Made by a program: the position numbers and the translations under genes | Origin: a bacterium | Lineage (GTDB): Bacteria > Zhuqueibacterota > Zhuqueibacteria > Zhuqueibacterales > Geothermadaptataceae | DNA: 60,564 nucleotides | Reading direction: 5' to 3' | Assembly: GCA_024275575.1 (NCBI GenBank) | Contig: JAJRYV010000130.1 | Coordinates: forward strand, 1 to 60,564 | Notes under the pieces: generated by a model | The model's input: the letters and a program-made list of their open reading frames with translations, nothing else | Told to the model about the DNA's origin: nothing | Databases searched by the model: none | Shown here: in pieces, positions 9,194 through 36,730 of the stretch | Layout of the letters: the number at the start of each line of letters is the position of its first letter | Numbering within the stretch: position 1 is the first letter of the stretch

Positions 9194-10744
9194 ATGCCGG
9201 ATTTGCAAAACGATTTGATTCTCATACTCGATTTTGGTTCACAATATACACAACTCATCACCCGCAAAGTGCGGGAGACCGGTGTTTACAGCGAGATTAA
9301 ACCCTGGTTCACTTCACTGGAAGAAATAAAAAAAATCAATCCGAAAGGCCTGATTTTATCCGGCGGCCCCGATAGTGTTTATGCCGTGGACGCCCCCCAT
9401 CCTGATCCCGGTATTTTTGAATTGCACATGCCGATTCTCGGGATTTGCTACGGACTGCAATTGATGGTGCAGCATTTTGACGGCAGCGTGCAGCCGGCCT
9501 CGCAGCGGGAATACGGGCGGGCTGTTCTGCAGGTTTTGGATGACAGCGACATATTCGCCGGTGTATCATCCGGCTCGCAAGTGTGGATGAGCCACGGTGA
9601 TTCCGTCTCGCAATTACCGGTCGGGTTTACCACATTCGCCTGCACCGGCAACGCGCCGCATGTGGCGATTGCGCACAGAGAGAAACATCTCTACGGTTTG
9701 CAATTTCATCCTGAAGTCGTACACACTGAACAGGGCAGCGAAGTTTTACGCAATTTCGCATTAAATATTTGCCATTGCAAAGGCGACTGGACGGCGGAAA
9801 ATTTTATCGAAAAGAGTGTTGCTGATATCCGGGAGAAAGCCGGCGATGAGCACGTGCTTTGTGCGCTTTCCGGCGGTGTCGATTCGGTGGTGGCGGCGGC
9901 TTTGGTTTTTAAAGCTATCGGGAAAAAATTGCATTGTGTTTTCGTCGATACCGGCCTGTTGCGGCGGAATGAGGCAGAGGAAGTCAGCTGCCGTTTCGGC
10001 AATTTTTTCGGGACGGGATTTACCGCAGTCGATGCTGCCGATCGCTTTGTTGGTAAATTGAACGGCATCGCCGATCCTGAAAAAAAGCGCAAAATAATCG
10101 GGGAAGAGTTCATTCGTGTTTTTGAGGAACAGGCCCGGAAATTGCCGCAGGTTCAATTTCTCGTGCAGGGCACGCTCTATCCCGATGTCATCGAAAGCGT
10201 TTCGCCGACCGGCGGCCCCTCGGTGACGATCAAATCGCACCACAATGTCGGCGGTTTGCCGGGGAAAATGCATCTTCGATTGATCGAGCCACTTCGTGAT
10301 CTGTTCAAAGATGAAGTACGGCAGGTCGGAAAAGCCCTCGGTTTGCCCGCTGAGATCATCGGGCGGCATCCTTTTCCCGGGCCGGGGCTGGCAGTACGCA
10401 TCCTCGGTGAAATCACCCCGGAACGTGTGGCAATTTTACAAAAGGCTGATGCTATTTACATCGAAGAACTACGACGTTCTGGCTGGTATGACAAAATCTG
10501 GCAGGCCTTTGCCATACTGCTGCCGGTGCACACCGTCGGTGTGATGGGCGACATGCGCACTTATGAAAACGCCGTAGCGATCCGTGCCGTCACCAGCACC
10601 GATGGCATGACGGCCGATTGGGGGAAATTGCCCTATGATTTGCTCGGCAGGATTTCCACTCGCATCATCAACGAGGTTAAAGGGATCAATCGCGTGGTTT
10701 ACGATATCAGTTCGAAACCCCCGGCAACGATCGAATGGGAATAG
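9194..10744 (+). CDS. guaA: GMP synthase (glutamine-hydrolysing)
   Basis: Converts XMP to GMP using glutamine and ATP (516 aa). The glutaminase domain occupies residues 1-200, with the nucleophile C85 in [11 protein letters not shown] and the His-Glu pair in [10 protein letters not shown]. The ATP-pyrophosphatase domain carries the P-loop LSGGVDSVV. The C-terminal dimerisation domain has [14 protein letters not shown] and ends KPPATIEWE, the canonical terminus. Complete and normal in length. A 72-base gap separates it from glmS. Confidence 0.98.
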
Positions 10745-10816
10745 GAGATAGTTGTTGTACGGGCGCTATCCGTAATTTTTAAACAAAATTATTGATTAAA
10801 TAAGGAAGCAACACCA

Positions 10817-12658
10817 ATGTGTGGAATTATCGGATATATCGGCGAGAAAAAAGTCATCCCGGTCATCATCAACGGATTGCGGCGCATGGAGTACCGCGGC
10901 TATGATTCATCGGGCATTGCAGCCGTGGCCGCAGATGGCATCAGATTGTCCAAAAAACCGGGTAAACTGGTGGAGCTGGAAAACGTGGTCAATGGCGCCA
11001 ACGATAGTAGCATCGAAGGCAGCGTGGGAATCGGCCATACACGCTGGGCGACCCACGGCGAGCCCAATGAAATCAACGCCCATCCACATGTCAGTTTCAA
11101 AAAGAAAATAGCGATTATTCATAACGGCATCATTGAAAACTATATTGCAATCCGTGAAGAGCTGAGCAAAAAGGGTTATGTCTTTTACACGGAAACAGAT
11201 ACGGAGGCGCTGGCTAATCTCATCGAGGAGCATTACGGAGATGAGACGGCGCTGGAGGAAGCGGTGCGCCTGGCTTTGCTCAGCGTAAACGGTACTTACG
11301 GTATCGCAGTGATTTCCGCCCGTGAACCGGAAAAAATCGTCACCGCACGTCAGGGAAGCCCCATCGTTCTCGGTTATGGCGACGGCTAAAATATCGTTGC
11401 TTCCGACGCCGCTGCTATTCTCGACCACACCAAACACGTCGCTTATCTCGATGACGGCGAATTGGCGATTCTGACGCGGGAGAGTGTCGTCATCAAAACG
11501 ATCAACAACGAAGCAGTGAATAAGGAAGTTGAAGAGATTTCTTACGATCTCGAACGTATTTCCAAAGGTGGCTATGATCATTACATGCTCAAGGAAATCA
11601 TGCAGCAGCCGCAAACGATCACTGACGCCATGCGTGGGCGGCTTCTCGCTGAGGAAGGCGATGCGCGGCTGGGCGGTCTGGCTGCGGAGTTGCAATCGCT
11701 GGCGTATGCCCGCCGGATTCTCATTACGGCCTGCGGTACCTCGTGGCATGCAGCGCTCATCGGCGAATATCTGTTTGAAGAATTTGTGCGTATTCCGGTT
11801 GAAGTGGAATATGCCTCCGAATTTCGCTACCGCGATCCGGTACTTTCAAATGATTGCTCGGTTTTTGTCATCAGCCAGTCGGGAGAAACCGCTGATACAC
11901 TCGCTGCGTTGCGCGAGGCCAAACGCAAAGGCGTCAAAGGTTTCGGCATATGCAACGTCGTCGGTTCGACTATTGCCCGGGAAACCGATGCCGGCGTTTA
12001 TCTGCATGCCGGGCCGGAGATCGGCGTCGCTTCCACCAAAGCCTTTACTTCGCAGGTGACCGTACTGACGCTGATCACCCTGTTGCTGGCGCGCATGCGC
12101 AGCATGTCGGCCTCAAAAGGCAAAGAAATCGTCGATGAATTGCAAGCCCTGCCGGAAAAGATGCGCACGATTTTCGCCAGCATTGCTGAAATTGAAAAAA
12201 TTGCCGGCAAATATTATGAAGCGAGCAATTTTCTCTATCTTGGCCGCGGCTATAATTTCCCTGTCGCCCTCGAAGGCGCTTTGAAATTGAAAGAAATTTC
12301 CTATATTCACGCCGAGGGATACCCGGCCGCGGAAATGAAACATGGCCCCATCGCACTCATCGATGAAAATATGCCGGTGGTTTTTATCGCCACCAAGGAT
12401 TCGTCTTACGATAAAATAATCAGCAATATCGAAGAGGTGAGAGCGCGCAAAGGCCGGGTCATCGCCATCGCCACCGAAGGTGATAACGAGATCAAAAACC
12501 GTGCGGATCATGTGATTTACGTGCCGCCGACGCTGGAATTTTTGGCGCCAATTTTAACGATTATTCCGCTGCAATTATTGGCTTATTATATCGCTATTTT
12601 GCGCGGCTGCGATGTCGATCAACCGCGCAATCTTGCCAAGAGCGTGACGGTAGAATAG
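10817..12658 (+). pseudogene. glmS: glutamine-fructose-6-phosphate aminotransferase, interrupted by in-frame TAA
   Basis: Both halves of GlmS are present in one frame. The glutaminase begins MCGIIGYIG with catalytic Cys2, and the two SIS domains carry ACGTSWHAAL, SQSGETADTL and EISYIHAEGYPAAEMKHGP. A TAA at 11387-11389 (codon 191) replaces the Glu expected in the conserved G-[DE]-G-E-N-[IFV]-[VI]-A-S-D stretch: the frame reads GYGDG, stop, NIVASDAAA. A single GAA to TAA change explains it, and the full frame of 613 positions matches normal GlmS length. TAA is an ordinary stop for neighbouring genes, so code reassignment is unlikely. GlmS makes glucosamine-6-phosphate for the cell wall and is usually essential, so a consensus error, a second gene copy or readthrough must be considered. 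Confidence 0.92.
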
Positions 12659-12712
12659 AAGCTATTCTGTTTAAAAATGTTTAAAATCAATAACTTAATT
12701 GGTGTACACGCG

Positions 12713-14623
12713 ATGAAAAAAAGAGTGATTACCGGCATCATTCTGCTCGTTTTTACAATACAGTTTACTCCGGCAACACTGTTGTCACAGGATGATCGAC
12801 CCGTTCTCAGCATTCGGCCTGAAGTCGACGCCGTGTTTAACCAGGGCGTCATTCTCTACAACAACGGTAATTTTCGTGGTGCAAAAAAGCAATTTGAAAG
12901 TATTCTCGGCAAAGACCGTTGGCACCAACGCTTGACTTCCACGCTGATTATGTATGCAAAAACGCTAGTGCATCTCGGTTACCCTGACCTCGCCGAAGAA
13001 AGTATCCGGCAATTGCTGCGCTATTTCCCCCAAAGTCGATATGTTGAGAATGCCCGCTATCAAATGGGATTGGTGCATTTTCTGCGCAAGGATTATTATG
13101 CTGCTGCCAAACAATTTCTTCGCGCGATGGATTTCGCTGCCTCTACTGCTTTGCAGCGCCAGGGGCAACAAAATGCCCGCATCATTATCAACGATTATTT
13201 GAACTTGAAAGAGATTAAAAAACTGCGGGGGGAAACCGCCGGCTCACAGGCCCTGGCGTTGGTGATCTCTGCCGAGGCGTTGCAGTATTTTCAACAGGGC
13301 AAGAAGGAAGCAGGCCGGGCGCTAGTGCAGAATTTTATCGCACAAAACCCTGAGGCTTCGCGCTCCAAAGACATTCAAGATATTCTCAGCGGGCAGATCA
13401 AACGGCGTACCGGGGTTCAGAAAATCGGTGTCATCCTGCCGCTTTCCGGGCAATTTGCCGAACAGGGGAAAGGTCTATTGCGTGGGCTGAAATATGCACA
13501 GATAAAACACGAAGCACGTTATCCCGCCGCGCCGCTGGTAGAGATTATCATCCGTGATTCGGAAAGCAATATCATCAAAGCGATTCGCCAGATTCAGGAA
13601 CTGGAATCCGACCCGGATATTCTCTGTATCGTGGGGGAAATGGAGAATTTCATCACCGCCGGCATGGCCGGTATTGCAGAATCCAAAGGATTGCCCATGA
13701 TCGCCCCGGTGGCAACCGATAACGGCATCGCGGATATCGGTTCTTATATTTTTCAGGCCAATCCCAGCCTGGGAACGCAGGCGCGGGCGCTGGCGCGTTA
13801 TGCCATCGACAGTCTTGGGCACCGCACCTTCGTCACCGTTGCACCGCAGGATGATTACGGCCACCAGATGGTAGACGCGTTTAGCGAAGAGGTCGACCGG
13901 CTTGGCGCGGAGATCATCACGCAGCGTTGGTATTACGGTATTCCCGAAAAGCTCCGCGGTCAGTTCAAGGAAATTCGGGAAATCGCTTTTCGCAGGGTGT
14001 TGGAAGATAGCTTGCGCCGGGTTCTGCCGGGTTATTCCACATTGGATAAAGACAGCCTGTGGCAGGAATACAATAATTTTGTCATGCTGGAAAACAAGAT
14101 CAAAGATAATATTGTTGATGCCAGTGGTTTTTTCCGGGTTGAGAATATCAATGCAGCTTTTTTCCCGGTTTATGATGAAGATATCGAATATGTCGCACGC
14201 CAGTTTAAGTATTTCAATATCAACGCACAGATTCTCGGCAGTGAAAACTGGTATTCGGCCAAATCGAGTAAAAACAAAAAACTGGCAGATTATGTGAACA
14301 ATACTATTTTTGCCAGCTCGTATTTTTATGACACGGAAAAACTCGCCTACCGTTTGTTCAGAAATGAGTTTCGCAAAACGATGGGGGCGACGCCGGAAAA
14401 GATGGAATTGTTCGGCTATGATACCGGCCTGATCATTTTTAACGTTATGGCGAAAGGTGTAAAATCACGACAAGCGATGCGCAACGAAATCGCCGCAATT
14501 CACAATTTGCAGGGCCGTAAGGGGCTGATCAGCCTTGATGGTATGACCCGCGTTAACAGCAAGGTGAATATTTTACAGTTTCAAGGTAAAAAGATCATCC
14601 GGCTGGCGAACGATACGGAATAA
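12713..14623 (+). CDS. TPR plus periplasmic-binding-protein domain, secreted
   Basis: A 636-residue exported protein. A signal peptide (MKKRVITGIILLVF...) is followed by TPR-like helical repeats (about residues 40-210: FNQGVILYNNGNFRGAKKQFESI and similar) and a type I periplasmic-binding fold resembling branched-chain amino acid receptors (from about 240: KIGVILPLSGQFAEQGKGLL; DILCIVGEMENF; GLPMIAPVATDNGIAD). The TPR-plus-binding-fold arrangement recalls LpoA-type activators of penicillin-binding proteins, but also generic substrate-binding lipoproteins, so the role is uncertain. I prefer the ATG at 12713 to the in-frame ATG at 12677 because it begins a clean signal peptide. It follows glmS closely, an envelope-precursor gene. 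Confidence 0.8.
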   Translation: MKKRVITGIILLVFTIQFTPATLLSQDDRPVLSIRPEVDAVFNQGVILYNNGNFRGAKKQFESILGKDRWHQRLTSTLIMYAKTLVHLGYPDLAEESIRQLLRYFPQSRYVENARYQMGLVHFLRKDYYAAAKQFLRAMDFAASTALQRQGQQNARIIINDYLNLKEIKKLRGETAGSQALALVISAEALQYFQQGKKEAGRALVQNFIAQNPEASRSKDIQDILSGQIKRRTGVQKIGVILPLSGQFAEQGKGLLRGLKYAQIKHEARYPAAPLVEIIIRDSESNIIKAIRQIQELESDPDILCIVGEMENFITAGMAGIAESKGLPMIAPVATDNGIADIGSYIFQANPSLGTQARALARYAIDSLGHRTFVTVAPQDDYGHQMVDAFSEEVDRLGAEIITQRWYYGIPEKLRGQFKEIREIAFRRVLEDSLRRVLPGYSTLDKDSLWQEYNNFVMLENKIKDNIVDASGFFRVENINAAFFPVYDEDIEYVARQFKYFNINAQILGSENWYSAKSSKNKKLADYVNNTIFASSYFYDTEKLAYRLFRNEFRKTMGATPEKMELFGYDTGLIIFNVMAKGVKSRQAMRNEIAAIHNLQGRKGLISLDGMTRVNSKVNILQFQGKKIIRLANDTE

Positions 14624-24590: not shown

Positions 24591-25646
24591 TCAGCAACAA
24601 GCTGGCCCTGTCGATTCTCCATCATTTTTCCCGGGCCCATTACTGCAATCGAAAGGTCCGTAATGCACGCTGGTATCGCCGATAATGGTAAAATGATCGC
24701 CAAACCGGGTCTCTTGCAGCATGGCGGCGGTATTACTGCAGACCGGGTAGCCTTTCCCGGTTTCAAAAAGATGGTGATCATCGAGTGAAAAACTGTGCGG
24801 CATTTCAGCAATCGTGCCTTTGTAAATAGCCACTTGCCCGTAGTCCTCACAAATATCTTCAAGCTGAGTCAATTTAAATGCGCGCACGGTCTGCGAATAA
24901 AAATCGATCATGCCGACTTTTTGCTGCAGCTCGTTGTTGTTCAGTTCGATGCGCCGTGATGAAACGATTCGTGGGTCGATGAAGCCGATTTTTTGCATCA
25001 GGCGACGAAAATCTTCGGTGTAAAGCGCACCGCTCAAACATTCAGCATACAAAACAGGATCATCGCGCAGGTTCTCTGGAATGCGCCGTCCGCAGAAGAC
25101 ATCGGAAAAATAGAGCTCGCCGCCGGGTTTGAGTACGCGAAATATCTCCGCAAAGACCTGTTCCTTGTTCGGCGAAAGATTGATCACGCAGTTCGATATG
25201 ATGATGTCGATAGAATCAGAAGCGATACCCAGTTCATCCAGTTTTTCGATGTATCCTTTTCTAAAGCTCACATTTGGCTGCGAAAAACTAAATCGTTGCA
25301 TCTGGCTATCGACGTGGCGCTGCGCAATTTCGAGTTGTTCGTCGGTCATGTCGATGCCGATGACGAAACCGTTTTGCCCGGCCAGTTTTGCAGCGAGATA
25401 GACATCCCTGCCGCTGCCGCAGCCCAGATCGATGATGGTTTTGCCGCCGATGTTTTCGGGAATTGGCGAGCCACATCCATAAAATTTTCGCAAAATTTCA
25501 TCATCGATTTCAGCGAGAATTTCTTTGTGATGTTGTGGAATCGATTCGCTGCTGCAACAGGCACTGGTCTGTAAATCCTGACTCGAATCCAGCTTTTTTC
25601 CGTAATATTCCTGCACTTCTAAAAATGTTTTTGATTCGGAAACCAT
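24591..25646 (-). CDS. arsM: arsenite methyltransferase of the arsenosugar cluster (ArsM-like)
   Basis: SAM-dependent methyltransferase (351 aa) that would methylate As(III) thiol complexes. SAM motif I is IIDLGCGSGRDVYLAAKLAG, and ISNCVINLSPNK gives the conserved Cys region. Further family Cys occur in TSACCSSES and near the C-terminus. The extended C-terminal half (YKGTIAEMPHSFSLDDHH through the GPACC end) is typical of ArsM linked to ArsS. The start at 25646 gives MVSESKTFLEVQEYYG; the longer open frame overlaps arsS and reads unlike the family. It is the last gene of a three-gene minus-strand run. Confidence 0.92.
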   Translation of the reverse strand: MVSESKTFLEVQEYYGKKLDSSQDLQTSACCSSESIPQHHKEILAEIDDEILRKFYGCGSPIPENIGGKTIIDLGCGSGRDVYLAAKLAGQNGFVIGIDMTDEQLEIAQRHVDSQMQRFSFSQPNVSFRKGYIEKLDELGIASDSIDIIISNCVINLSPNKEQVFAEIFRVLKPGGELYFSDVFCGRRIPENLRDDPVLYAECLSGALYTEDFRRLMQKIGFIDPRIVSSRRIELNNNELQQKVGMIDFYSQTVRAFKLTQLEDICEDYGQVAIYKGTIAEMPHSFSLDDHHLFETGKGYPVCSNTAAMLQETRFGDHFTIIGDTSVHYGPFDCSNGPGKNDGESTGPACC

Positions 25647-25680
25647 AATATTTCTCTTCCTTTTTCGTGTCTGAAAATGA

Positions 25681-26715
25681 TTACGTGATTTCACCGCCAC
25701 AACTGCTGCCCGCTCCTGCAGTGCAGCCGAAGCAATGGGAGGCGAATTCAATTTGCCGCGTCATCAAATCATCATAATTAAAATTAAATACCGTGCTCAG
25801 TTTGCCGTTCTTCACCTGCATATCGAGCATCTGGTTAAAATCGCAGTCGAAAATGCGGCCGTCATAACTAACGCTCAGCAGGCTGCGGCACATGATGCCC
25901 TCCGCCGCCTCTGGGTTGAAAGCATTGACCAGCTTGTCGAGATATTCTTCGTAATTTCCCAGCCTTTGCAATTGCTGCCTGAAGCGATGAATCGGCATGT
26001 TGGTGATGATGAATAAATGATTAAAATGAATGCCGTATTTTTGCAGCAGCTCTTTTTTAAAATCTTTTTCAAGGCAATCCTGCCCGGCCGGCAAAAAGGC
26101 CCCGGCAGGATTGTAAACCAGGTTGAGTTGCAGGCCGTTGTTTTCTTTGCCATATCCCTGTTCGTTCAACAATTTCAGGCTTTCAATACTCTTGCTGAAA
26201 ACACCCCGGCCACGCTGTTTGTCCGTGAAATATTCCTGATAATAGGGCAGAGAAGAGACGACCTCGACCTGATGCTCTGCATAAAACTCCGGTAAATAGG
26301 CTTTGCTTTCCCCGGTCACCGGGTTGCCGTCCAGGGTTACCGTCAGATTGTGCCGCGACATCACGTGTTTTCCCAGCTTGCGAGCTTCCAGAACAAGGTA
26401 ATCAAAATGCGGATTCAATTCGGGCGCACCACCGGTGATATCGATATTTTTAATCTGCTCAAATTCGGCGAGAATTTCCAGACAGCGGTTGATCGTGCGT
26501 AAATCCATATGCTCTTTGCGTTTTGGCGAAGCATCCACATGACAATGAAGGCAAGCCTGATTGCACAGCCTGGTTACATTGAGCTGCAATGTTTCGATCG
26601 TTTTCGGGCTTACCGTAATTTTCCGATCTGCCAAGGTTTTGCTGAAATTATATTTCAGCTCTTCTTCGAAGGGGCCAACGGTTGTACTGCTGATATTTAA
26701 AACACGACGACTCAT
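25681..26715 (-). CDS. arsS: arsenosugar biosynthesis radical SAM protein ArsS
   Basis: Radical SAM enzyme (344 aa) with the cluster motif CNQACLHC (CxxxCxxC) at about residues 51-58 followed by DASPKRKE, and the conserved DITGGAPELNP. The C-terminal part has CDFNQML and Cys-rich CFGCTAGAGSSCGGE, likely extra cluster ligands. ArsS-type proteins are proposed to attach an adenosyl-derived group to methylated arsenic on the way to arsenosugars. It lies between the peroxidase-like gene and arsM, a conserved order. Whether the host makes arsenosugars is inference. Confidence 0.93.
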   Translation of the reverse strand: MSRRVLNISSTTVGPFEEELKYNFSKTLADRKITVSPKTIETLQLNVTRLCNQACLHCHVDASPKRKEHMDLRTINRCLEILAEFEQIKNIDITGGAPELNPHFDYLVLEARKLGKHVMSRHNLTVTLDGNPVTGESKAYLPEFYAEHQVEVVSSLPYYQEYFTDKQRGRGVFSKSIESLKLLNEQGYGKENNGLQLNLVYNPAGAFLPAGQDCLEKDFKKELLQKYGIHFNHLFIITNMPIHRFRQQLQRLGNYEEYLDKLVNAFNPEAAEGIMCRSLLSVSYDGRIFDCDFNQMLDMQVKNGKLSTVFNFNYDDLMTRQIEFASHCFGCTAGAGSSCGGEIT

Positions 26716-27678: not shown

Positions 27679-30471
27679 TCAATCCAATTTCTGTAAAACA
27701 AGCTCAATGGTCATTATTTTCTTTTTACCGATTTGCAAAGGGATGCTGCAACCTTCGAGGTCCAGCTTTGTTTCTCTCTCTTCGTTGAGATTGCAGTGCC
27801 AGGCCTGTTGTACCGGCCGGTAAAATTCGAGTTTCCCGGTAATTTCAGCCGCAGTGGGATTGAAAATCCGTACCATCCATGATTGTGGCCTGTCCTCTGC
27901 CTGTTTGAAAGCCGAAAGCTGTAAATTATCACCCTCGAGGCGTAGGAAGCTGAGTTCTTTCGGCAGAATTCCACTATGCGCGCCGGCCTGCGCTATCTCT
28001 AACGGCAGGTTAAAATCTTCCGCCTCGCGATAGACGCCGTTTTGCCAATGACCCGTGTGTGGGAAAATCGCATAAGACCACTGCATTTCCCCGGGGCATT
28101 GCGCCAGTTTCATTTCAGGATGCACTTCATAACGCCCGATCACCGGGCAATTGCGGTAGACAAAGGCGCGAAACAGGGTAATCGCCAGCGGCCGGTCAGG
28201 GCTGTCCATGGCTTCGTATTCGCGAATGCCGGTATTGAGAATGGCCAGCCCGGTTTTACCGTCGGACATGTCGACAAATCGGTGCATCGGGTATGTGGGG
28301 TTTTCCCGGCCGAAATACGGACTTCCCTTTTTAACATGAATATCGCGGGAGATGACATCAAAACTCACTTCAGCCTCTGTCTGATCACAGTTGAGATGTG
28401 TCGGGAAGAGCACGCGCATACGGTGGTTGCGGCATGTATTGTTAAGTCGGGTTGTCACTTCTAACCGTCGTGCTCCCTTGCGCAAGGTAAAATCACTTTG
28501 CACCGTTATTTTTCGTTTTTCTGCCGAGCGTCGAACATCATTGCGAAATTCGCTGCGGTCTTGTGCATGCATCGGCTGGTCGAGATCGACCGGAATCATC
28601 ATTTCGTATTGCAGCCGCAATGTCGCCAGCAATGGCCCGGCTTCGGTAATCGATACCGAACAGGCGCAACCGAGGGAGGTGATAATCTCATTGCCGTCCG
28701 GTTTTTTGTGGATCCATGAATGCCCGCTTTCGCCGCTGTCTTCAAAATAATGTAGCCCGACAAAGGTATGGCCGTTCACTTTACAGGTCAAATCCAGCGT
28801 CCCGTTAGGGTTAAAATGAGCGCGCAAATATTCATTTTCCAGCGTATCCGGCGCCGTGAGAAGCGAACCCGGCTGTGGTGCAAAATTTTCTCGCCGCACG
28901 AGGTGATAAATTTTATAGCCAAGAGCCGGAATTGCATCGCTTTCAAAATGGCAATGGAAACGCTGCGAGCGCAATTCGAGGGAGATATCCTGCAAATTGC
29001 GCACGAGAGTGCCGAAAGGAAATTCACTTTTGATCTGCAGGGATTTACTTTCCCCATCCGGTGTTTCGATGCCGAAGGCAGAACAATCCATTCCTTGTGG
29101 CAGATCGATGAAGCAGGAGATCACCCCCTGCCGCGGGAATGGGGTGGAATTAAAAATCGTGAGCACACTGTCGTTTTCGTCGAGATCGCTGTTGTCGATT
29201 TGAATCTGTACCTGCTGCATGCCGCGCCGTTTGACGCCCTGGGAAATGAGGTGAATCTGGTCGGCACGGTAAAGCGAGTCCTTCTCCATTTGATCGATGC
29301 CGCCACCGGTGATGGTATCGTGCGGATGATTTTTCAACAACAAAATCCAGGCGCGTTCGATAGCGCTGCGATAATATTGTCCGCCGGCCAAAGCACCGAT
29401 AGCGCTCCACGGCTCGGCGCAGCGCTGAATATCGAGCTCGGCACGGTGATTGGCGATCTTCAATCGTGCGCGTGCACTGATCACATCACCGTATAAATGC
29501 GTCCATTTTCCTACAGCGCCGGGGTTGCGGCTCTCGCCGTAAATTCGCTCCACCTCGCCGATTTCCTGCCGCATGGCTGTCATAAAATCATGCAAATTCG
29601 AGAGCTTAATCTCATGCCCAGGGCAAGCTTTTTGGCAAAGTTTAACCAGCTCGCTTTCCCGCGAGTCGGGGTTGGAAGCATCAAATCCTTGCATACAGGC
29701 GATGTGGCGGGTAGAGAAATGGGCGGATTCATCGCCGATCAGGCTTCGTATTTGTGCAGGGATTTTTTCCACATGCCATTGTTTTTTCTCCGCATCGAGT
29801 ACATAATAATGCTCCCGCGGCTGCTTGTCGCTGGCCAAACGAAAAGGCGCTGCACCACGATTCCAGCGATATCGCCAGTCATCGTTTTCCATGCCGTAGC
29901 GGACCTGGCGGTAGATGTAAAAATAATAGCTGAAGCGGCTCAAACAGCCAAATCGCATGCCGAGCAACCTGGATTCATCGGGGCCTTCGAAGATAAATTC
30001 ACTCTTTTTTGTGTTGATACCGCGATAGAATATGATAGTGTCGATACCGAAGCCGTTATAAATCTGCGGCATTTGTGAGGTCTGCCCATAACTGAAAGGT
30101 GTGTAGCCAACTTTTGAAATTTTGCCCAACTCTCCAGCCTTGCGATGCCCGATGAGTAAATTGCGCACCAGCGATTCACCGTTGACGAGAAATTCTTCCG
30201 GCAACGAATACCACGGCCCGATGATGAGCCGGCCGCTTTTTACGTGTTTTTCGATGCGTTTTTTGTTCCCGGGGCGCAATTCGAGATAATCGAGAATGCT
30301 CAGCACCTGCGAATCGAATGTGAAAGACTGGAATTCAGGATCGTTATCGAGCAGGTCGAGTAAGTCGTCCATAAAATCGAGCAAAAGCAGCCGGGTTTCT
30401 TCAAAGGCATAGCCCCACTCGCGGTCCCAGTGTGAATTGCTGATGATGTGAATTATTTTTTTTTCAGTCAA
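27679..30471 (-). CDS. GH38-like (alpha-mannosidase family) protein lacking the usual nucleophile
   Basis: A 930-residue cytoplasmic-type protein with GH38 layout: N-terminal metal-site motif SNSHWDREW (H14, D16), middle domain with NHPHDTITGGGIDQ (H384), and C-terminal beta-sandwich domains. In characterised GH38 enzymes the catalytic Asp, which is also a zinc ligand, lies in a D-x-FGxSxQMP segment. Here that segment is GYTPFSYGQTSQMPQ, with Phe126 (codon at 30094-30096) in the Asp position. The other three zinc ligands are kept. No signal peptide. It is the last gene of the LacI-controlled minus-strand run, so a role on a mannose- or heptose-like glycoside is inferred, but standard retaining hydrolysis is doubtful. 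Confidence 0.88.
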   Translation of the reverse strand: MTEKKIIHIISNSHWDREWGYAFEETRLLLLDFMDDLLDLLDNDPEFQSFTFDSQVLSILDYLELRPGNKKRIEKHVKSGRLIIGPWYSLPEEFLVNGESLVRNLLIGHRKAGELGKISKVGYTPFSYGQTSQMPQIYNGFGIDTIIFYRGINTKKSEFIFEGPDESRLLGMRFGCLSRFSYYFYIYRQVRYGMENDDWRYRWNRGAAPFRLASDKQPREHYYVLDAEKKQWHVEKIPAQIRSLIGDESAHFSTRHIACMQGFDASNPDSRESELVKLCQKACPGHEIKLSNLHDFMTAMRQEIGEVERIYGESRNPGAVGKWTHLYGDVISARARLKIANHRAELDIQRCAEPWSAIGALAGGQYYRSAIERAWILLLKNHPHDTITGGGIDQMEKDSLYRADQIHLISQGVKRRGMQQVQIQIDNSDLDENDSVLTIFNSTPFPRQGVISCFIDLPQGMDCSAFGIETPDGESKSLQIKSEFPFGTLVRNLQDISLELRSQRFHCHFESDAIPALGYKIYHLVRRENFAPQPGSLLTAPDTLENEYLRAHFNPNGTLDLTCKVNGHTFVGLHYFEDSGESGHSWIHKKPDGNEIITSLGCACSVSITEAGPLLATLRLQYEMMIPVDLDQPMHAQDRSEFRNDVRRSAEKRKITVQSDFTLRKGARRLEVTTRLNNTCRNHRMRVLFPTHLNCDQTEAEVSFDVISRDIHVKKGSPYFGRENPTYPMHRFVDMSDGKTGLAILNTGIREYEAMDSPDRPLAITLFRAFVYRNCPVIGRYEVHPEMKLAQCPGEMQWSYAIFPHTGHWQNGVYREAEDFNLPLEIAQAGAHSGILPKELSFLRLEGDNLQLSAFKQAEDRPQSWMVRIFNPTAAEITGKLEFYRPVQQAWHCNLNEERETKLDLEGCSIPLQIGKKKIMTIELVLQKLD

Positions 30472-30547: not shown

Positions 30548-30570
30548 ACTATGCTTCGGCAAGCTCAGTA
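30548..30570. repeat. short copy of the CTTCGGCAAGCTCAG repeat core
   Basis: ATGCTTCGGCAAGCTCAGTAACC carries the same 14-base core as the elements at 33044-33190. It supplies the stop codon and last codon of the HAD gene, so the repeat has landed at, and slightly altered, the 3' end. Confidence 0.6.
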
Positions 30571-31470
30571 ACCTGCGGCAATCGTCTCCAGCAGCAGTGA
30601 TACATCGTGATACGGATTGCGCACGATCACATGTGCACCTGCTGCGATGAGTCGCTTTTCTTTCTGCGCGAGAGTAAAATGCCCGAGATGTTCGTAGTAA
30701 CTTTCATCCCGGCTGACGATACCAACCGCGACGCCACCCGCGTGGAATGTATGCAAAATTTCCGGGAATCCATCACCGAAAGTCAGTAGCTCATTTCCCT
30801 GCAAAGCATGTTCAGTGAGCAAATTCGCGATTACTTTTTCTTTAGCGTCTTCTTCGGGATTCAGACGCCCGGCGCCGGCGATGCGATCGGTGGCAAAAAA
30901 TGAGGAAAAGCCGAGAAATTCTACACTTTCAGTGACAGCTTCCTGGTCTGTGCCGCTGGCGAGATAAACACCCTTTTCCAGCTTGCTGTTCAAGCGCCGC
31001 ACCAGGTCCCGGGCGCCGGTGATGCGCAGATCTTTCGCTGAAAACCCTTTCCGGCGAGCTGTGACCATGGCCACCAGGGCAGCATTATAGGCATTTTTGA
31101 AAACCATCGGATCGAGTTGCGGGCCTGAATATCCATTCGCCTCAATCATCGTGCGCAAACGCTTCATTTGCAGATAGGTTGGAATGCCGATGGTTTGCTC
31201 GATATCTTCGATAACCATTTTTTCAGCAATTTCATGGTGCAGGTGCGGTGAACTCAGGGCGATGAGAAAAGCGATGTTACTCGTCATCATGACATTGGGC
31301 CAGCCGAGGCGTTCATCTGAAAGCGTGCCGTCGAGGTCGAAAAGGGCGACTTTTATATTGCGTGCATCGAACGGGCGGACGATGATGATATTACCGCCGG
31401 AGTTTTCCACGCTTACTGGTGAATCCAGAAGTCCGTTCCGGCCGGGGAAATCTTTTAAAAATTGGGCCAT
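30565..31470 (-). CDS. HAD-superfamily phosphatase (phosphoglycolate/beta-PGM type)
   Basis: A 301-residue HAD hydrolase. Motif I is VALFDLDGTLSDE at about residues 42-54, motif II is VYLASGTD, and motifs III/IV are in KEKVIANLL and LTFGDGFPEI. A helical cap lies between motifs I and II. The start at 31470 (MAQFLKDFPGRNG) was chosen because an AAGAGAA site precedes it; the longer open frame runs into the kinase gene. The C-terminal stop lies in a repeat core (TTCGGCAAGCTCAG at about 30554-30567). It probably dephosphorylates a sugar-phosphate intermediate in this locus; the substrate is unknown. Confidence 0.87.
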   Translation of the reverse strand: MAQFLKDFPGRNGLLDSPVSVENSGGNIIIVRPFDARNIKVALFDLDGTLSDERLGWPNVMMTSNIAFLIALSSPHLHHEIAEKMVIEDIEQTIGIPTYLQMKRLRTMIEANGYSGPQLDPMVFKNAYNAALVAMVTARRKGFSAKDLRITGARDLVRRLNSKLEKGVYLASGTDQEAVTESVEFLGFSSFFATDRIAGAGRLNPEEDAKEKVIANLLTEHALQGNELLTFGDGFPEILHTFHAGGVAVGIVSRDESYYEHLGHFTLAQKEKRLIAAGAHVIVRNPYHDVSLLLETIAAGY

Positions 31471-31501
31471 TATTTCTCTTGTTATCAATTTAAGGTTAGG
31501 G

Positions 31502-32506
31502 TCATTCAGGCAGTAATTGTAGAATCTCTTGTGGGGTTGCTGCACCGCATTGATAGAGTTTCCGTACTGAAACGGCAGCAGCAAGTGTTCCCAATTTTGC
31601 CGCCGTCACTGGTGCGGCTCCGGCTGCCAATGCTGCAGTCAGACCTGCCAACAAGGTATCGCCGGCCCCGACGGTATCGACCGGGCCGCTGATTTTCTCT
31701 GCCGGAACTTCCTGAACCGATCCGCCATCGCCAATTAACACGCCTGCTGCTCCACAGGTGACGAAGATCATTTCCCGCCAGCGCTGTGTGAGCTGTTTTG
31801 TTGCCGCCATGGCCTGATCGTAGGAAATTTCACTGTCCACAGGCAGCTCAAACCCACACAGGATGCAGGCCTCTCGATCATTGATTTTCCGCATGGTGCC
31901 ATGAAAATCGTCACCGAAATCCCGGCTGTCTGTAATAAAGGTGACTTGTGGGTTTTTTTCGACCAACGCCACCAGTTGGCGGCGAAAATCCCGTGTGTGA
32001 ATACCGCGCACGAGCTGTTGGTTGATGATTACGGCGTCGAGCTCCGGCAGCTTTTTTTGCAAACTTTGCAGCAAGCCGGTCGCCACTGCCGTTTGCAAGT
32101 GATTAAAATTGCCGAAATCGATACGGTTGCGTTCCTTGCCGGCAACAATTCGTTTTATATAAACGCAGGTCTGCCATTCTTTTTTCTGATATTGCAAACC
32201 TTCGCACTGAATCGAAAGCTGCTGCAAAATACGGCAAGTTTCCTGCGCAAAAAGATCCTGACCGAGCACGCCAAAAGCATGAACTTCACCGACGCCGAGG
32301 GTTGCAAGATTTGCCGCCACGTTGCCGGCGCCGCCGGGTGAATAGCGATGCTCACGCACAGGCTGTGTCGGCAAACCGGTTTCCACCGAAATCTCCGCTG
32401 CCAACGTGTCGATTTCCCAATAAGCATCGAGACAGAAATCGCCAAGGACCGCAATTTTGACCTTTTTAATGCGCTTAAAAACTTTGCACATTTCTTTTTT
32501 ATTCAT
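31502..32506 (-). CDS. PfkB-family carbohydrate kinase, RfaE/HldE domain I-like
   Basis: A 334-residue ribokinase-fold kinase. It has the N-terminal GDFCLDAYWEID, the glycine motif YSPGGAGNVAANLATLG, and the C-terminal catalytic motif DTVGAGDTLLAGL, whose Asp is the general base. Nearest in style to D-glycero-D-manno-heptose-7-phosphate kinase (HldE domain I), but the ISPEAPVPVV signature is replaced by ISVETGLPTQPV, so the substrate may differ. It overlaps the nucleotidyltransferase gene by four bases, keeping the two HldE halves as coupled separate genes within a catabolic-looking operon. Confidence 0.88.
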   Translation of the reverse strand: MNKKEMCKVFKRIKKVKIAVLGDFCLDAYWEIDTLAAEISVETGLPTQPVREHRYSPGGAGNVAANLATLGVGEVHAFGVLGQDLFAQETCRILQQLSIQCEGLQYQKKEWQTCVYIKRIVAGKERNRIDFGNFNHLQTAVATGLLQSLQKKLPELDAVIINQQLVRGIHTRDFRRQLVALVEKNPQVTFITDSRDFGDDFHGTMRKINDREACILCGFELPVDSEISYDQAMAATKQLTQRWREMIFVTCGAAGVLIGDGGSVQEVPAEKISGPVDTVGAGDTLLAGLTAALAAGAAPVTAAKLGTLAAAVSVRKLYQCGAATPQEILQLLPE

Positions 32507-32982
32507 TTGTCCATCATTTTTGAGATGATGCGTGTTGTTGATTTGCCCGCCACAAATTCGATTGTTCTGACCTCTCCTCCGGCCGCCGCCACCTCCGGCG
32601 CCCCAACGATGGTATCAAAGGTGTAGTCCCCACCTTTAACCAACACATCCGGCATCAGCGTCGTGATCAGGTTGTAGGGCGTATCTTCATCGAATAAGAC
32701 GATGAGATCGATGGCCCACAATCCTGCGGCAACGATGGCGCGGTCATTCTCCGATTGAATCGGCCGCCCCGGACCTTTCAATCGCTGCACCGAAGCATCG
32801 GTATTTAAACCGAGAATCATGTGTTCACCCATTTGCCGCGCTTCCGTCAGATATAAAACATGTCCGGGATGCAGAATATCGAAGCAGCCGTTGGTGAAAA
32901 CGACTTTTTCACCGGCGCGCTTCCAGGCGGAGCGGATTTCGATTGCTTGTTGCAGATCAACTATTTTTTCTCTCAGGTTCAT
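32503..32982 (-). CDS. RfaE/HldE domain II-like nucleotidyltransferase
   Basis: A 159-residue cytidylyltransferase-fold enzyme. It has TNGCFDILHPGHVLYL, with the HxGH nucleotide-binding motif, GLNTDASVQRLKGPGRPI, DVLVKGGDYT and the end VAGKSTTRIISKM, corresponding to the ISTT/KSTT signature. Characterised relatives transfer AMP to D-glycero-beta-D-manno-heptose 1-phosphate. Length matches stand-alone RfaE2. Translationally coupled (4-base overlap) to the PfkB kinase downstream. It could serve ADP-heptose synthesis for lipopolysaccharide or a nucleotide-activated step of this sugar locus. Confidence 0.9.
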   Translation of the reverse strand: MNLREKIVDLQQAIEIRSAWKRAGEKVVFTNGCFDILHPGHVLYLTEARQMGEHMILGLNTDASVQRLKGPGRPIQSENDRAIVAAGLWAIDLIVLFDEDTPYNLITTLMPDVLVKGGDYTFDTIVGAPEVAAAGGEVRTIEFVAGKSTTRIISKMMDK

Positions 32983-33198: not shown

Positions 33199-34119
33199 CT
33201 ACAGGATGAGATTTCCCTCCGCTGTTATATAATTTCGGGTGATATAATCGAGGCTGGTGCGCACTTCTTCCGTGAAACCGGTCGTGCCACAGCGGGAATG
33301 GGTAGAGATAGCTACACCACGTTTGGCTAACAAGTATTTTGAACTCACCGGGTGGGCGCATCGCTGGATCATCTCAAGCGTACAGAATTTTTGATGCAGG
33401 CTTTCAGCAAGCGGATCATGCTCGTGTACCATACGAATAATCGCAGCCGCCATATCCGTGAGCCAGATAGATGCGATATTCATCGAACCCGGCACACCGG
33501 CGCGGCAGGCTCGTAATAGAAATGGCGCGTTGGCCTGCAATAGTGCAAAAGGGGTATTGCGTGTCACCGCATGCAGTGCCATGATTTTTTTCAAATCACA
33601 ACTGGTTTCTTTATAGGCGACAAAACGGCCGCTTTGCGCCAGTTTTTTAACGAGTGAGATTCCCAGGTGATATATGCGTGGTTCCGGGCATTCATAAATA
33701 CCACAGGGCAGGGAGACGGCTTCAGCCACAGCGAAATAGTATTTTTCCATTTCGGCGTCTGAGTTTAAAAATTCAGGTACCAGCAACATTAAAGCATCGA
33801 CGCCGGTATCTTCAACGCGCAAGGCAAAATCGATATGCGCCTTTAGTGAAGCACCCAGGTTCGCCGTGGCCACCACTTTCGTGCGGCCGGCGACAATTTT
33901 TACTGTCTCGGAAACGAGTTGCAAGCGTTCTTCATTTGTCAGAAAATACATCTCACCGGACAAGCAGTTGGGGTACAAACCGCCGATATTAAATTGCAGA
34001 TACCATTCGATCATCTGCTGCAGGACGGCAAAATCGATTTTGAGATTTTTATCAAACGGTGTGACCATCGTCGGCCAGGTTCCGTTATATTCCCGGGTCG
34101 TTGCAGTATTTTCTCTCAC
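33199..34119 (-). CDS. DapA/NanA-family lyase (dihydrodipicolinate synthase-like)
   Basis: A 306-residue class I aldolase-type TIM barrel. The Schiff-base Lys is K170 in FVAYKETS and the catalytic Tyr is Y142 in PCGIYECPEP. The usual G-x-TGE substrate loop is altered to NCLSGE. In this superfamily such enzymes cleave or form 2-oxo acids (sialic acid, KDG, 4-hydroxy-tetrahydrodipicolinate). Its place next to an SSS symporter and LacI regulator points to catabolic cleavage of a sugar-derived oxo acid, which is inference. A basic lysine-biosynthesis role is less likely given context. Confidence 0.9.
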   Translation of the reverse strand: MRENTATTREYNGTWPTMVTPFDKNLKIDFAVLQQMIEWYLQFNIGGLYPNCLSGEMYFLTNEERLQLVSETVKIVAGRTKVVATANLGASLKAHIDFALRVEDTGVDALMLLVPEFLNSDAEMEKYYFAVAEAVSLPCGIYECPEPRIYHLGISLVKKLAQSGRFVAYKETSCDLKKIMALHAVTRNTPFALLQANAPFLLRACRAGVPGSMNIASIWLTDMAAAIIRMVHEHDPLAESLHQKFCTLEMIQRCAHPVSSKYLLAKRGVAISTHSRCGTTGFTEEVRTSLDYITRNYITAEGNLIL

Positions 34120-34161: not shown

Positions 34162-35709
34162 TTAACTCCAGATCGTCAGATTTTCCAGATGATCTTTTGC
34201 CAGACGCCATTTAGTACCGAATAAATAACCAACGATAAACATGATCAGATTGCCGAAAATGCCGGTGTAATAAAGATCGAATGGCGCTTGCAACACCGCC
34301 GGCAGCATATCATTTTTTGCCAGGATCGTCCAACCGGTAAACGCTACGGTGCAGATGATACCGAACCACACCGAACGGGCGTCGCCTTTGGTGGTGAGAA
34401 ACCCCAGCAGGTACATACCCAGCAGGCCACCGCCGAACAGTGAAATTAAAATCGTCGCCGTATCTTGCATCGTGCGTGTCTCCGATTTCGATAAAATGAT
34501 GGCACCACAGATCATGAAAGCAGCAGCAGTGGCAGCCACCAGCCAGGCTACTTTCAAATAATGACGGTCGTCGCGGTTTTTCGCAAAAAATTTGCGGTAA
34601 AAATCCGTTACCGAAACGGTGGAGATAGCGTTGATGCTGGAATCGAGACTGGACATTGCCGCTGCGAGCGCTGCTGCGATCACCAGCCCGGTAATTCCCG
34701 GCGGCAGATAATGCATGATGAAAAACGGAAATATCTGTTCCGCTTTGCGTACGCCGGAGAGAATTTCAACGCTTTCGATCGTCGGAAAAACCTTGAACAA
34801 GACGTACATCGCAGTGCCGAGAAACATGTAAAAAGTCCAGATTGGCAAGCTCGTCGATACACTGATCCACATAGCTTTACGCGCCTCTTTTGTACTTTTT
34901 GAGGCGGCAAAGCGCTGCACCGTATTCTGATTGCTGCTATATTCGGTGAGCCAGTTCACCAGGCCGAGCACCAGCATCATGGAAATAGTTTTTTCCTGCA
35001 ATGAAAAACCCCAGGGAGAGGGCACCAGTTGTCCATTCTGCAATTCAGCCAAACCAAATTTGCCGTCAGCCAGGGCGACGGAAAATATTTGCCCGATACC
35101 GCCCGGTAAAAGATCGATAATAACAATTAAACTGACGATGCCACCGAGCATGAGCACAATCGTCTGAATAACGTCTGTCCAGATGACGGCGTCGATACCG
35201 CCGAGCACGGTGTAAACCGCCACAAAACCACCGGCGACAAGAATGCTCAAAAGGGGATCGATGCCAAGCATTTCGTGCAGCACCAGTGAAATAAGGTAAA
35301 GAATAATGCTCACGCGCACGAGTTGCGAGGAAACAAAAGCGATGGCGCCGTAAACACGAATCGACGGACCGAAGCGATCTTCGAGATATTCATAGGCGGA
35401 GGTGATTTTCTTGCGCCGGAAAAAAGGCAAAAAGATGCGCGCGGCGATAAAAATGCTCAGTGGCAGCATCAGATTGGGGATAAAGCGCAGCCAGGCTGTT
35501 TTAAAAGCATCAGCGGGGTAAGCGAGAAAAGTGATGGAGCTGATGGAGGTGCCCACAAGACTTAATCCGATCACCCAGCCAGTATAGGACCGCCCGCCGA
35601 CGAAATACTCTTCCGTGCTGGTATTCTTTTTTGAAAACCAGAAACCCAGCGCCAGCATGCCACCCATGTAAATGACCAGCGTGACGATATCAAGCCAATG
35701 TAAATTCAC
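34162..35709 (-). CDS. sodium:solute symporter (SSS family)
   Basis: A 515-residue transporter with about 13-14 membrane segments. It has the SSS signatures WFSKKNTSTEEYFVGGRSYT at the N-terminus and the conserved GLVIAAALAAAMSSLDSSINA region of the Na+ site. It would import a sugar or organic acid with sodium. It is the second gene of the LacI-led run, 22 bases downstream of the regulator, and so is probably induced by its own substrate. SSS members of this type commonly carry sialic acid, glucose or other sugars; the exact substrate is not predictable. Confidence 0.95.
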   Translation of the reverse strand: MNLHWLDIVTLVIYMGGMLALGFWFSKKNTSTEEYFVGGRSYTGWVIGLSLVGTSISSITFLAYPADAFKTAWLRFIPNLMLPLSIFIAARIFLPFFRRKKITSAYEYLEDRFGPSIRVYGAIAFVSSQLVRVSIILYLISLVLHEMLGIDPLLSILVAGGFVAVYTVLGGIDAVIWTDVIQTIVLMLGGIVSLIVIIDLLPGGIGQIFSVALADGKFGLAELQNGQLVPSPWGFSLQEKTISMMLVLGLVNWLTEYSSNQNTVQRFAASKSTKEARKAMWISVSTSLPIWTFYMFLGTAMYVLFKVFPTIESVEILSGVRKAEQIFPFFIMHYLPPGITGLVIAAALAAAMSSLDSSINAISTVSVTDFYRKFFAKNRDDRHYLKVAWLVAATAAAFMICGAIILSKSETRTMQDTATILISLFGGGLLGMYLLGFLTTKGDARSVWFGIICTVAFTGWTILAKNDMLPAVLQAPFDLYYTGIFGNLIMFIVGYLFGTKWRLAKDHLENLTIWS

Positions 35710-35731: not shown

Positions 35732-36730
35732 TTACGTCGATTGACGCAGCACCAGTTGAGGTTTTAACTCAATTTGCCGTTTTTCCAGTGGTACCGCTTT
35801 TTTCTCTATTTTATCGATAAGAATTTTTGCAGCTATTTCACCGAGTTCATAGTTTTGCTGTTTGACCGTCGTCAGGGGGGGGAATAAATATTCGGAAAAA
35901 ACAAGATCGTCGTAACCGATAACCGCAACATCCCGGGGAATTGTTATACCATTTTCCAGCAAAGCTTTGCGCACCCCGAGGGCCAAAGTATCATTCCAGA
36001 CCGCAAAAGCGCGCGGCAACGTTTTATTTTGTATCGCCTGAAGTGTGAGTTGATAACAATGTTCTACCGAATCGTCGACGTGCGTGATCGTTAATGTTGC
36101 TTCCGTCAGACCGAAATCACGAACCGCCTTGCGGCTGCCGGTGATGCGTTCCCGGCCCGTCGTTGTCTGCGGCCGGGCACAGAGATAGACGATGGACCGG
36201 TAGCCCTGCTGCAACAGATGCTGCATTGCGATGTAACTGCCGTGTACATTGTCGTTTTTAACGTAATCACAATCGAGGGCGCTGGAGAAACGGTTGAGAA
36301 AAATGAAAGGCACCGTGAGTTTTTGCAGTTCTGTGATGTACGCCTCCCCTTTTTGCAGGGGAAACATCAGCAAACCATCGACACGTTTGGAGCGAATTTG
36401 GCGCAGAAATTCGAGCTCGGCCTCAGCGCTGTTTTGGGTATTGCAGAAAAGCGTTGTATAACCGGCAGAAAAACAGACAGCGTGGATGGCATCGAGCTTT
36501 TCCGCTGTGAGCAAATCGGACACACCGGGCATAAGAATGGCGATGACATTTGTGCGCCGGGTGACGAGACTTTTCGCCAGTTCGTTGGGCACATATCCGC
36601 GGCGCCGGGCAATTTGTAAAATGCGTTGTTTGGTTTCAGCTTTGATATCCGGTTTGTCGTTCAGCGCCCGTGAAACGGTGATGGCGGAAACACCGGCTTC
36701 TGCCGCAATGTCTTTGATCGTTACGCTCAA
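35732..36730 (-). CDS. LacI-family transcriptional regulator
   Basis: A 332-residue repressor. The N-terminal HTH is VTIKDIAAEAGVSAITVSRALND with hinge helix VPNELAKSLVTRR, followed by a periplasmic-binding-like effector domain that starts NVIAILMPGVSD and ends ELKPQLVLRQST. Translation starts at TTG (36728-36730), preceded by AAAAGGAGC at proper spacing. Its promoter overlaps a large palindrome made of two GGTAACGTTACC boxes, so the gene is very probably autoregulated. It is the first gene of the run that continues through the symporter, lyase, nucleotidyltransferase, kinase, phosphatase and GH38-like genes. Confidence 0.95.
   Translation of the reverse strand: MSVTIKDIAAEAGVSAITVSRALNDKPDIKAETKQRILQIARRRGYVPNELAKSLVTRRTNVIAILMPGVSDLLTAEKLDAIHAVCFSAGYTTLFCNTQNSAEAELEFLRQIRSKRVDGLLMFPLQKGEAYITELQKLTVPFIFLNRFSSALDCDYVKNDNVHGSYIAMQHLLQQGYRSIVYLCARPQTTTGRERITGSRKAVRDFGLTEATLTITHVDDSVEHCYQLTLQAIQNKTLPRAFAVWNDTLALGVRKALLENGITIPRDVAVIGYDDLVFSEYLFPPLTTVKQQNYELGEIAAKILIDKIEKKAVPLEKRQIELKPQLVLRQST

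Follow-up and report, generated by a model that had tools for sequence, protein, structure and literature searches.

The window, by which we mean the whole stretch of DNA analyzed (60,564 nucleotides), contains a same-strand run of genes that begins with a LacI-type regulator and ends with the gene for a GH38-like protein:

35732..36730, minus strand: LacI-type regulator
34162..35709, minus strand: sodium/solute symporter
33199..34119, minus strand: DHDPS-family aldolase/lyase, below all NCBIfam cut-offs
32503..32982, minus strand: RfaE-II gene, placed by the order of the run
31502..32506, minus strand: PfkB kinase, RfaE1-like, below the NCBIfam cut-off
30565..31584, minus strand: HAD-family gene directly upstream of the GH38-like gene; its start is probably near 31470, and the TTG used here overlaps the kinase gene
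27679..30471, minus strand: GH38-like gene of 930 amino acids with a TTG start; Phe126 is the residue at the nucleophile site

This run is preserved in the sister genome (locus L112), and the other loci have differing neighbors. Elsewhere in the window, at 24591..26715 on the minus strand, Pfam identifies a radical SAM protein with DUF3641 beside a methyltransferase, a pair that we take to resemble arsenosugar synthesis genes.

A GH38-like protein without the catalytic aspartate

All four GH38 domains (PF01074, PF09261, PF07748, PF17677) are found above the Pfam cut-offs in the 930-residue protein; GH38 models alone are returned, with no membership of GH65, GH94, GH112, GH130, GH149 or GH161. 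In a phmmer search of the PDB, Enterococcus and Streptococcus GH38 enzymes align with E values of about 1e-95 to 1e-100, and among solved structures the closest in sequence are the Enterococcus faecalis and Streptococcus pyogenes GH38 enzymes. The same entries rank top when the predicted model (mean pLDDT 79.5, pTM 0.84) is compared by Foldseek (5kbp, TM 0.84/0.88). The window's genome has no second match to the GH38 N-terminal domain. In the S. pyogenes enzyme SpGH38, according to its published description (PMC2815779), zinc is bound by H13, D15, D125 and H351, D125 is the nucleophile and D232 the acid/base; R149 favors the ionized form of D125, and Y192 hydrogen-bonds to it. The corresponding features of the GH38-like gene are the following:

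30430..30432, minus strand: His14, zinc ligand kept (SpGH38 H13)
30424..30426, minus strand: Asp16, zinc ligand kept (SpGH38 D15)
30094..30096, minus strand: codon 126, TTC (Phe), at the GH38 nucleophile and zinc-ligand Asp site, from the sequence and the PDB alignment
29935..29937, minus strand: Arg179, clade-specific, in place of the Tyr that hydrogen-bonds to the nucleophile (SpGH38 Y192; matched by motif)
29776..29940, minus strand: low-confidence stretch of the model, residues 178-232, spanning the clade-specific insert
29680..29682, minus strand: Asp264, candidate general acid/base kept (SpGH38 D232)
29320..29322, minus strand: His384, zinc ligand kept (SpGH38 H351)

An earlier note on this DNA had read Phe126 at the Asp site, and the open reading frame, the codon (within GYTPFSYGQTSQMPQ, read from the DNA) and the PDB alignment, in which F126 lies against the Asp of GYFPDTFG in the Enterococcus and Streptococcus enzymes, all agree. 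Its claim that H14, D16 and H384 persist as zinc ligands is likewise borne out by their match to SpGH38, while the motif it quoted, D-x-FGxSxQMP, is loose: the D-type sequences here mostly read GY-x-P-D-[ST]-F-G. We call the protein GH38-like rather than GH38 because its GH38 membership, judged by sequence, fails at the nucleophile Asp.

Relatives lacking the aspartate form one clade

Relatives were taken from 99 genomes around the window's genome and from a genome collection (the best 80 of 591 confirmed loci). Among the 114 homologs scoring above 300 bits, which come from overlapping collections with some genes counted twice, the site is occupied by F in 69, D in 28, T in 11, S in 2 and C in 1, and is unreadable in 3. 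A sequencing error or a lone mutation is ruled out, because close and distant relatives carry the same loss. A tree of 105 rows, built after removal of the motif and the insert, separates the 27 D rows almost fully from the 78 others, in which site 126 is F (68), T (7), S (2) or C (1) and never D or E. The best tree that constrains these 78 rows together lies 41 log units above the free quick tree (p-AU 0.84), and by this test the non-Asp rows are a clade of one origin. The divergent clade anticipated in the earlier note is therefore real and large, and what its 78 rows share is a non-Asp site rather than Phe alone.

By record title, the clade is hosted by Hydrogenedentota, Calditrichota, Latescibacterota, Omnitrophota, Ignavibacteria, Bacteroidales, Planctomycetes, Lentisphaerae, Kiritimatiellales, Verrucomicrobia, Sumerlaeota, Armatimonadota, Spirochaetes and Firmicutes, the last being our own grouping of Clostridia, Paenibacillus and kin. 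Cultured hosts include Ruminiclostridium cellobioparum subsp. termitidis, Paenibacillus mangrovi and Faecalicatena orotica.

Several sequences depart from the two main types. L105 keeps both Asp and Tyr and has a 35-residue stretch, and L089 combines Ser, Lys and the full insert; these possible intermediates group together on the quick tree, and L142 resembles L089. Two D-type GH38 proteins of about 1050-1085 amino acids (L026 and L028) have Glu in place of the acid/base Asp (GYEQ) and a long C-terminal extension.

Residues retained, lost and gained

Where readable in the clade, the zinc ligands and the acid/base are H14 in 81/81, D16 in 82/82, H384 in 83/83 and D264 in 83/83 sequences; D264 is present in all 78 clade rows of the tree, and Asp385 is also invariant. 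The surroundings of the lost Asp have changed. Position 179 is Arg in 77 of the 78 rows and Lys in one, while all 27 D rows, read by eye, have the Tyr of a Y-x-x motif at the equivalent place; this equivalence rests on the motif, as the alignment column holds Tyr in 11 and a gap in 16 of the 27. Position 150, the counterpart of SpGH38 R149, is basic throughout the clade rows (R 55, K 14, H 9). The residue that follows the acid/base is His in 24/27 D rows and in 4/78 clade rows. A second set, drawn from genomes of G093's phylum, shows the same pairing: every readable non-Asp sequence has R or K at the 179 equivalent (by eye), and Tyr is found in all five Asp sequences readable at both sites, the sixth being gapped.

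A scan of all columns yields clade-specific basic gains at positions 173, 179, 188, 211, 416 and 918, among them R173 (94% of clade rows), R/K at 179 (100%), R188 (77%) and H/R/K at 211 (94%). The gains at 173, 179, 188 and 211 are predicted to cluster near the active site, with residues 178-232 modeled at low confidence. Between positions 175 and 246, all 78 clade rows have 69-76 residues; of the 27 D rows, 26 have 25-35 and the other has 59, so that the clade insert is about 45 residues longer than the D-type stretch. At a cut-off of 60% for one residue, R179, N181, R188, W203 and F210 are conserved in the insert, position 211 is basic but varies among H, R and K, and there is no conserved D, E or H. 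A replacement nucleophile within the insert is rejected on this ground. Nor, when the alignment is searched for a nucleophile elsewhere, as the earlier note had proposed, does any carboxylate clearly substitute; the sole acidic gain in the scan, E345, lies outside the insert and remains as a candidate.

With SpGH38 (2WYH/2WYI) and E. faecalis GH38 (3LVT/5KBP), the protein shares the GH38 Pfam domains, the three zinc ligands, the acid/base Asp and, by its predicted model, the whole fold (TM 0.81-0.84 by query); it differs in Phe126, in Arg179 for the Tyr192 equivalent, in the loss of His at position 265 and in the insert of about 45 residues. A lost nucleophile with metal, acid and pocket kept and Arg in place of Tyr is, as a sequence pattern, the signature of a putative anion site.

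The missing nucleophile would suit a noncatalytic binding protein, and, by the titles of PDB entries, D204A nucleophile mutants of dGMII were crystallized with bound substrates. We nevertheless consider a pseudoenzyme very improbable: the zinc ligands, the acid/base and Asp385 are invariant over many phyla, and the conservation of a new residue set (R179 and the insert) points to catalysis. The earlier note had offered three options: a different mechanism, a different substrate, or binding with no cleavage. The evidence leans to the first, and the last is the least likely because the remaining catalytic and zinc site is practically invariant.

The mechanism could also be that of an inverting hydrolase, in which water would be activated by the zinc or by a carboxylate acquired in the clade, E345 for instance, and the association with HAD genes (below) would be incidental. 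E345 is Glu in 67/78 clade rows (86%), compared with 22% of D rows that are acidic there, and the zinc still has three ligands; in the inverting GH47 and GH92 alpha-mannosidases, a metal holds O2/O3 and the nucleophilic water. We regard this reading as unlikely, in view of the lack of a conserved D, E or H in the insert, the basic character of the gains beside the lost Asp, which makes them ill-suited as a general base, and the HAD neighbors.

HAD-family partner genes

A HAD gene of clusters c1, c5 or c26 lies within four genes of the GH38-like gene in 31 of 84 clade loci, compared with 0 of 21 D-type loci, and is immediately adjacent in 25 of the 84, a count that leaves out two clade-like fragments with no readable site. 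The figure of 31/84 is a lower bound because many contigs end close to the clade gene. In the genome-contig set alone, the association is found in 26/61 clade and 0/21 D-type loci (Fisher p 9e-5). Across the 99-genome set, HADs of these clusters are present in 21/23 clade genomes and 2/76 others (p 4e-17, a value that counts related genomes as separate and includes G044, in which the site residue is unread). Cluster c26 was scored with a 350-bit cut chosen post hoc, with the scores already seen; with c1 and c5 only, p is 2e-8.

In 40 genomes of the phylum of G093, presence of the c1 HAD shows no tie to the clade: 9 of 18 clade genomes have it and 12 of 22 others, where the 18 are those with a readable residue, leaving out G115 (a strong match) and G129 (a fragment short of the site). 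HAD and GH38-like genes are adjacent in several genomes of this phylum, and HADs also stand beside unrelated genes there; the neighbors of lone HADs give no clue. The argument therefore rests on adjacency, and the HAD is a frequent but not obligatory partner of the GH38-like gene, since the presence tie vanishes in this phylum even though adjacency occurs.

When HAD folds are compared, phosphatases and putative beta-phosphoglucomutases rank together, and the predicted fold leaves undecided whether the partner is a beta-phosphoglucomutase. A PDB sequence search with the c1 and window HADs gives no match, and one with c5 a single weak match. Arg49, which we take to be a beta-phosphoglucomutase residue, is not kept in these HADs by our own reading of the sequences.

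Other neighbors and the possible substrate

According to one study (PMC10948575), HldE nucleotidyltransferases adenylate beta-mannose 1-phosphate and not the alpha anomer. Given this preference, we count the RfaE-II gene near the GH38-like gene in the window in favor of a phosphorolytic reaction that yields a beta-sugar 1-phosphate (below). The link is given little weight because, among the neighborhoods examined, it is confined to the window's genus. Moreover, this RfaE-II is the only one above the cut-off in the genome, so it may merely serve lipopolysaccharide and its proximity may be coincidental.

Rather than holding phosphate, the gained basic residues could serve to bind an anionic substrate. 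The protein would then act on an anionic or N-acetylated sugar, either as a hydrolase or with the substrate assisting catalysis: the basic residues would bind a carboxylate, phosphate or sulfate of the substrate, or a 2-acetamido group would be the nucleophile. Consistent with this, NanE, PGM/GlmM-like and GH94 genes occur in an operon of the Ignavibacteria type, a DHDPS-family gene lies upstream, a BNR_2 gene lies downstream in the sister genome, and the best NCBIfam relative of the protein is mannosylglycerate hydrolase, scoring under that model's cut-off. We consider it distinctly unlikely, as these neighbors are lineage-specific and the loss of the nucleophile is unexplained unless catalysis is substrate-assisted. 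Other sugar chemistry, by an epimerase, a lyase on oxidized glycosides or a transferase, is suggested by a GFO_IDH_MocA gene adjacent in one locus and by URO-D-family genes nearby in several hosts; this single GFO_IDH_MocA among the neighbors scanned and the lack of a shared cofactor gene make it improbable.

Other features of the clade loci may be recorded. URO-D or MtaA-like genes recur by clade genes in L075, L079, L122 and L126. In L079, a 795-residue protein (10479-12863) with a weak GH38N match alone adjoins the clade gene. Two clade paralogs stand near each other in one operon in L117/L118 and in L071/L073; between those of L117/L118 lies a gene that clusters with a GSU2086-family protein.

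A proposed phosphorolytic mechanism

We tentatively favor inverting phosphorolysis of an alpha-manno-configured glycoside as the reaction of the GH38-like clade. The protein would be a catalytically competent GH38-fold enzyme with an anion-binding pocket in place of the Asp nucleophile. Inorganic phosphate would occupy the former position of the Asp carboxylate, held by Arg179 and Arg150 with the assistance of Arg173, Arg188 and the basic residue at 211, while zinc would bind O2/O3 of the sugar. Protonation of the leaving group by Asp264 and attack of the phosphate on the beta face would complete the reaction in one inverting step, and such an attack would give a beta-manno-configured sugar 1-phosphate (the sugar could be mannose, manno-heptose or another), which the adjacent HAD enzyme could rearrange or dephosphorylate. 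Phosphate as the nucleophile is, by analogy with GH130, the simplest use of the putative anion site, and it would explain HAD partners that act on sugar phosphates. Counted against phosphorolysis are the gain of E345, which could be a base, the absence, in the phylum of G093, of a tie between clade and c1 HAD, and the HAD partner itself, whose fold is equally phosphatase-like and which lacks Arg49.

Precedents are found in other families. GH65 phosphorylases have as their partner a HAD mutase, beta-phosphoglucomutase. They convert an alpha-glycoside to a beta-sugar 1-phosphate (PMC8950772), as proposed here; they act on glucosides, while the GH38-like protein has no GH65 Pfam match and its HAD neighbors are no more than candidate mutases. 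GH130 mannoside phosphorylases carry three basic residues that hold phosphate as the nucleophile in a single inverting displacement, similar to the mechanism proposed here, and carboxylates replace these residues in the hydrolases (PMC4599007); this family offers a precedent in reverse for phosphate replacing a carboxylate nucleophile. GH130 differs in its unrelated five-bladed propeller fold (PMC8950772) and in cleaving beta-mannosides, whereas the GH38-like enzyme would cleave an alpha-manno linkage. In its available text, that 2022 review (PMC8950772) lists inverting phosphorylase families that exclude GH38, which is never named there. Our search, confined to open-access literature, which leaves subscription papers mostly and preprints wholly outside, found no paper on nucleophile-less GH38-like proteins or a GH38 phosphorylase.

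Implications

Domain models label the members of this clade GH38 alpha-mannosidases, yet the established mechanism of the family is impossible for them. It is possible, though we hold this more loosely than phosphorolysis itself, that this GH38-fold clade of many phyla represents a new phosphorylase family, one that cleaves alpha-manno-glycosides with inversion, yields beta-manno sugar 1-phosphates and arose by a carboxylate-for-phosphate swap, and that the RfaE-type kinase/adenylyltransferase set may take up the product in the window's genus. If its members are inverting hydrolases, they would represent a switch from retention to inversion inside one fold. If they are phosphorylases, GH38 would show how a retaining hydrolase can become an inverting phosphorylase by exchange of its nucleophile for phosphate, and the clade would offer biocatalysts for beta-mannose 1-phosphate.
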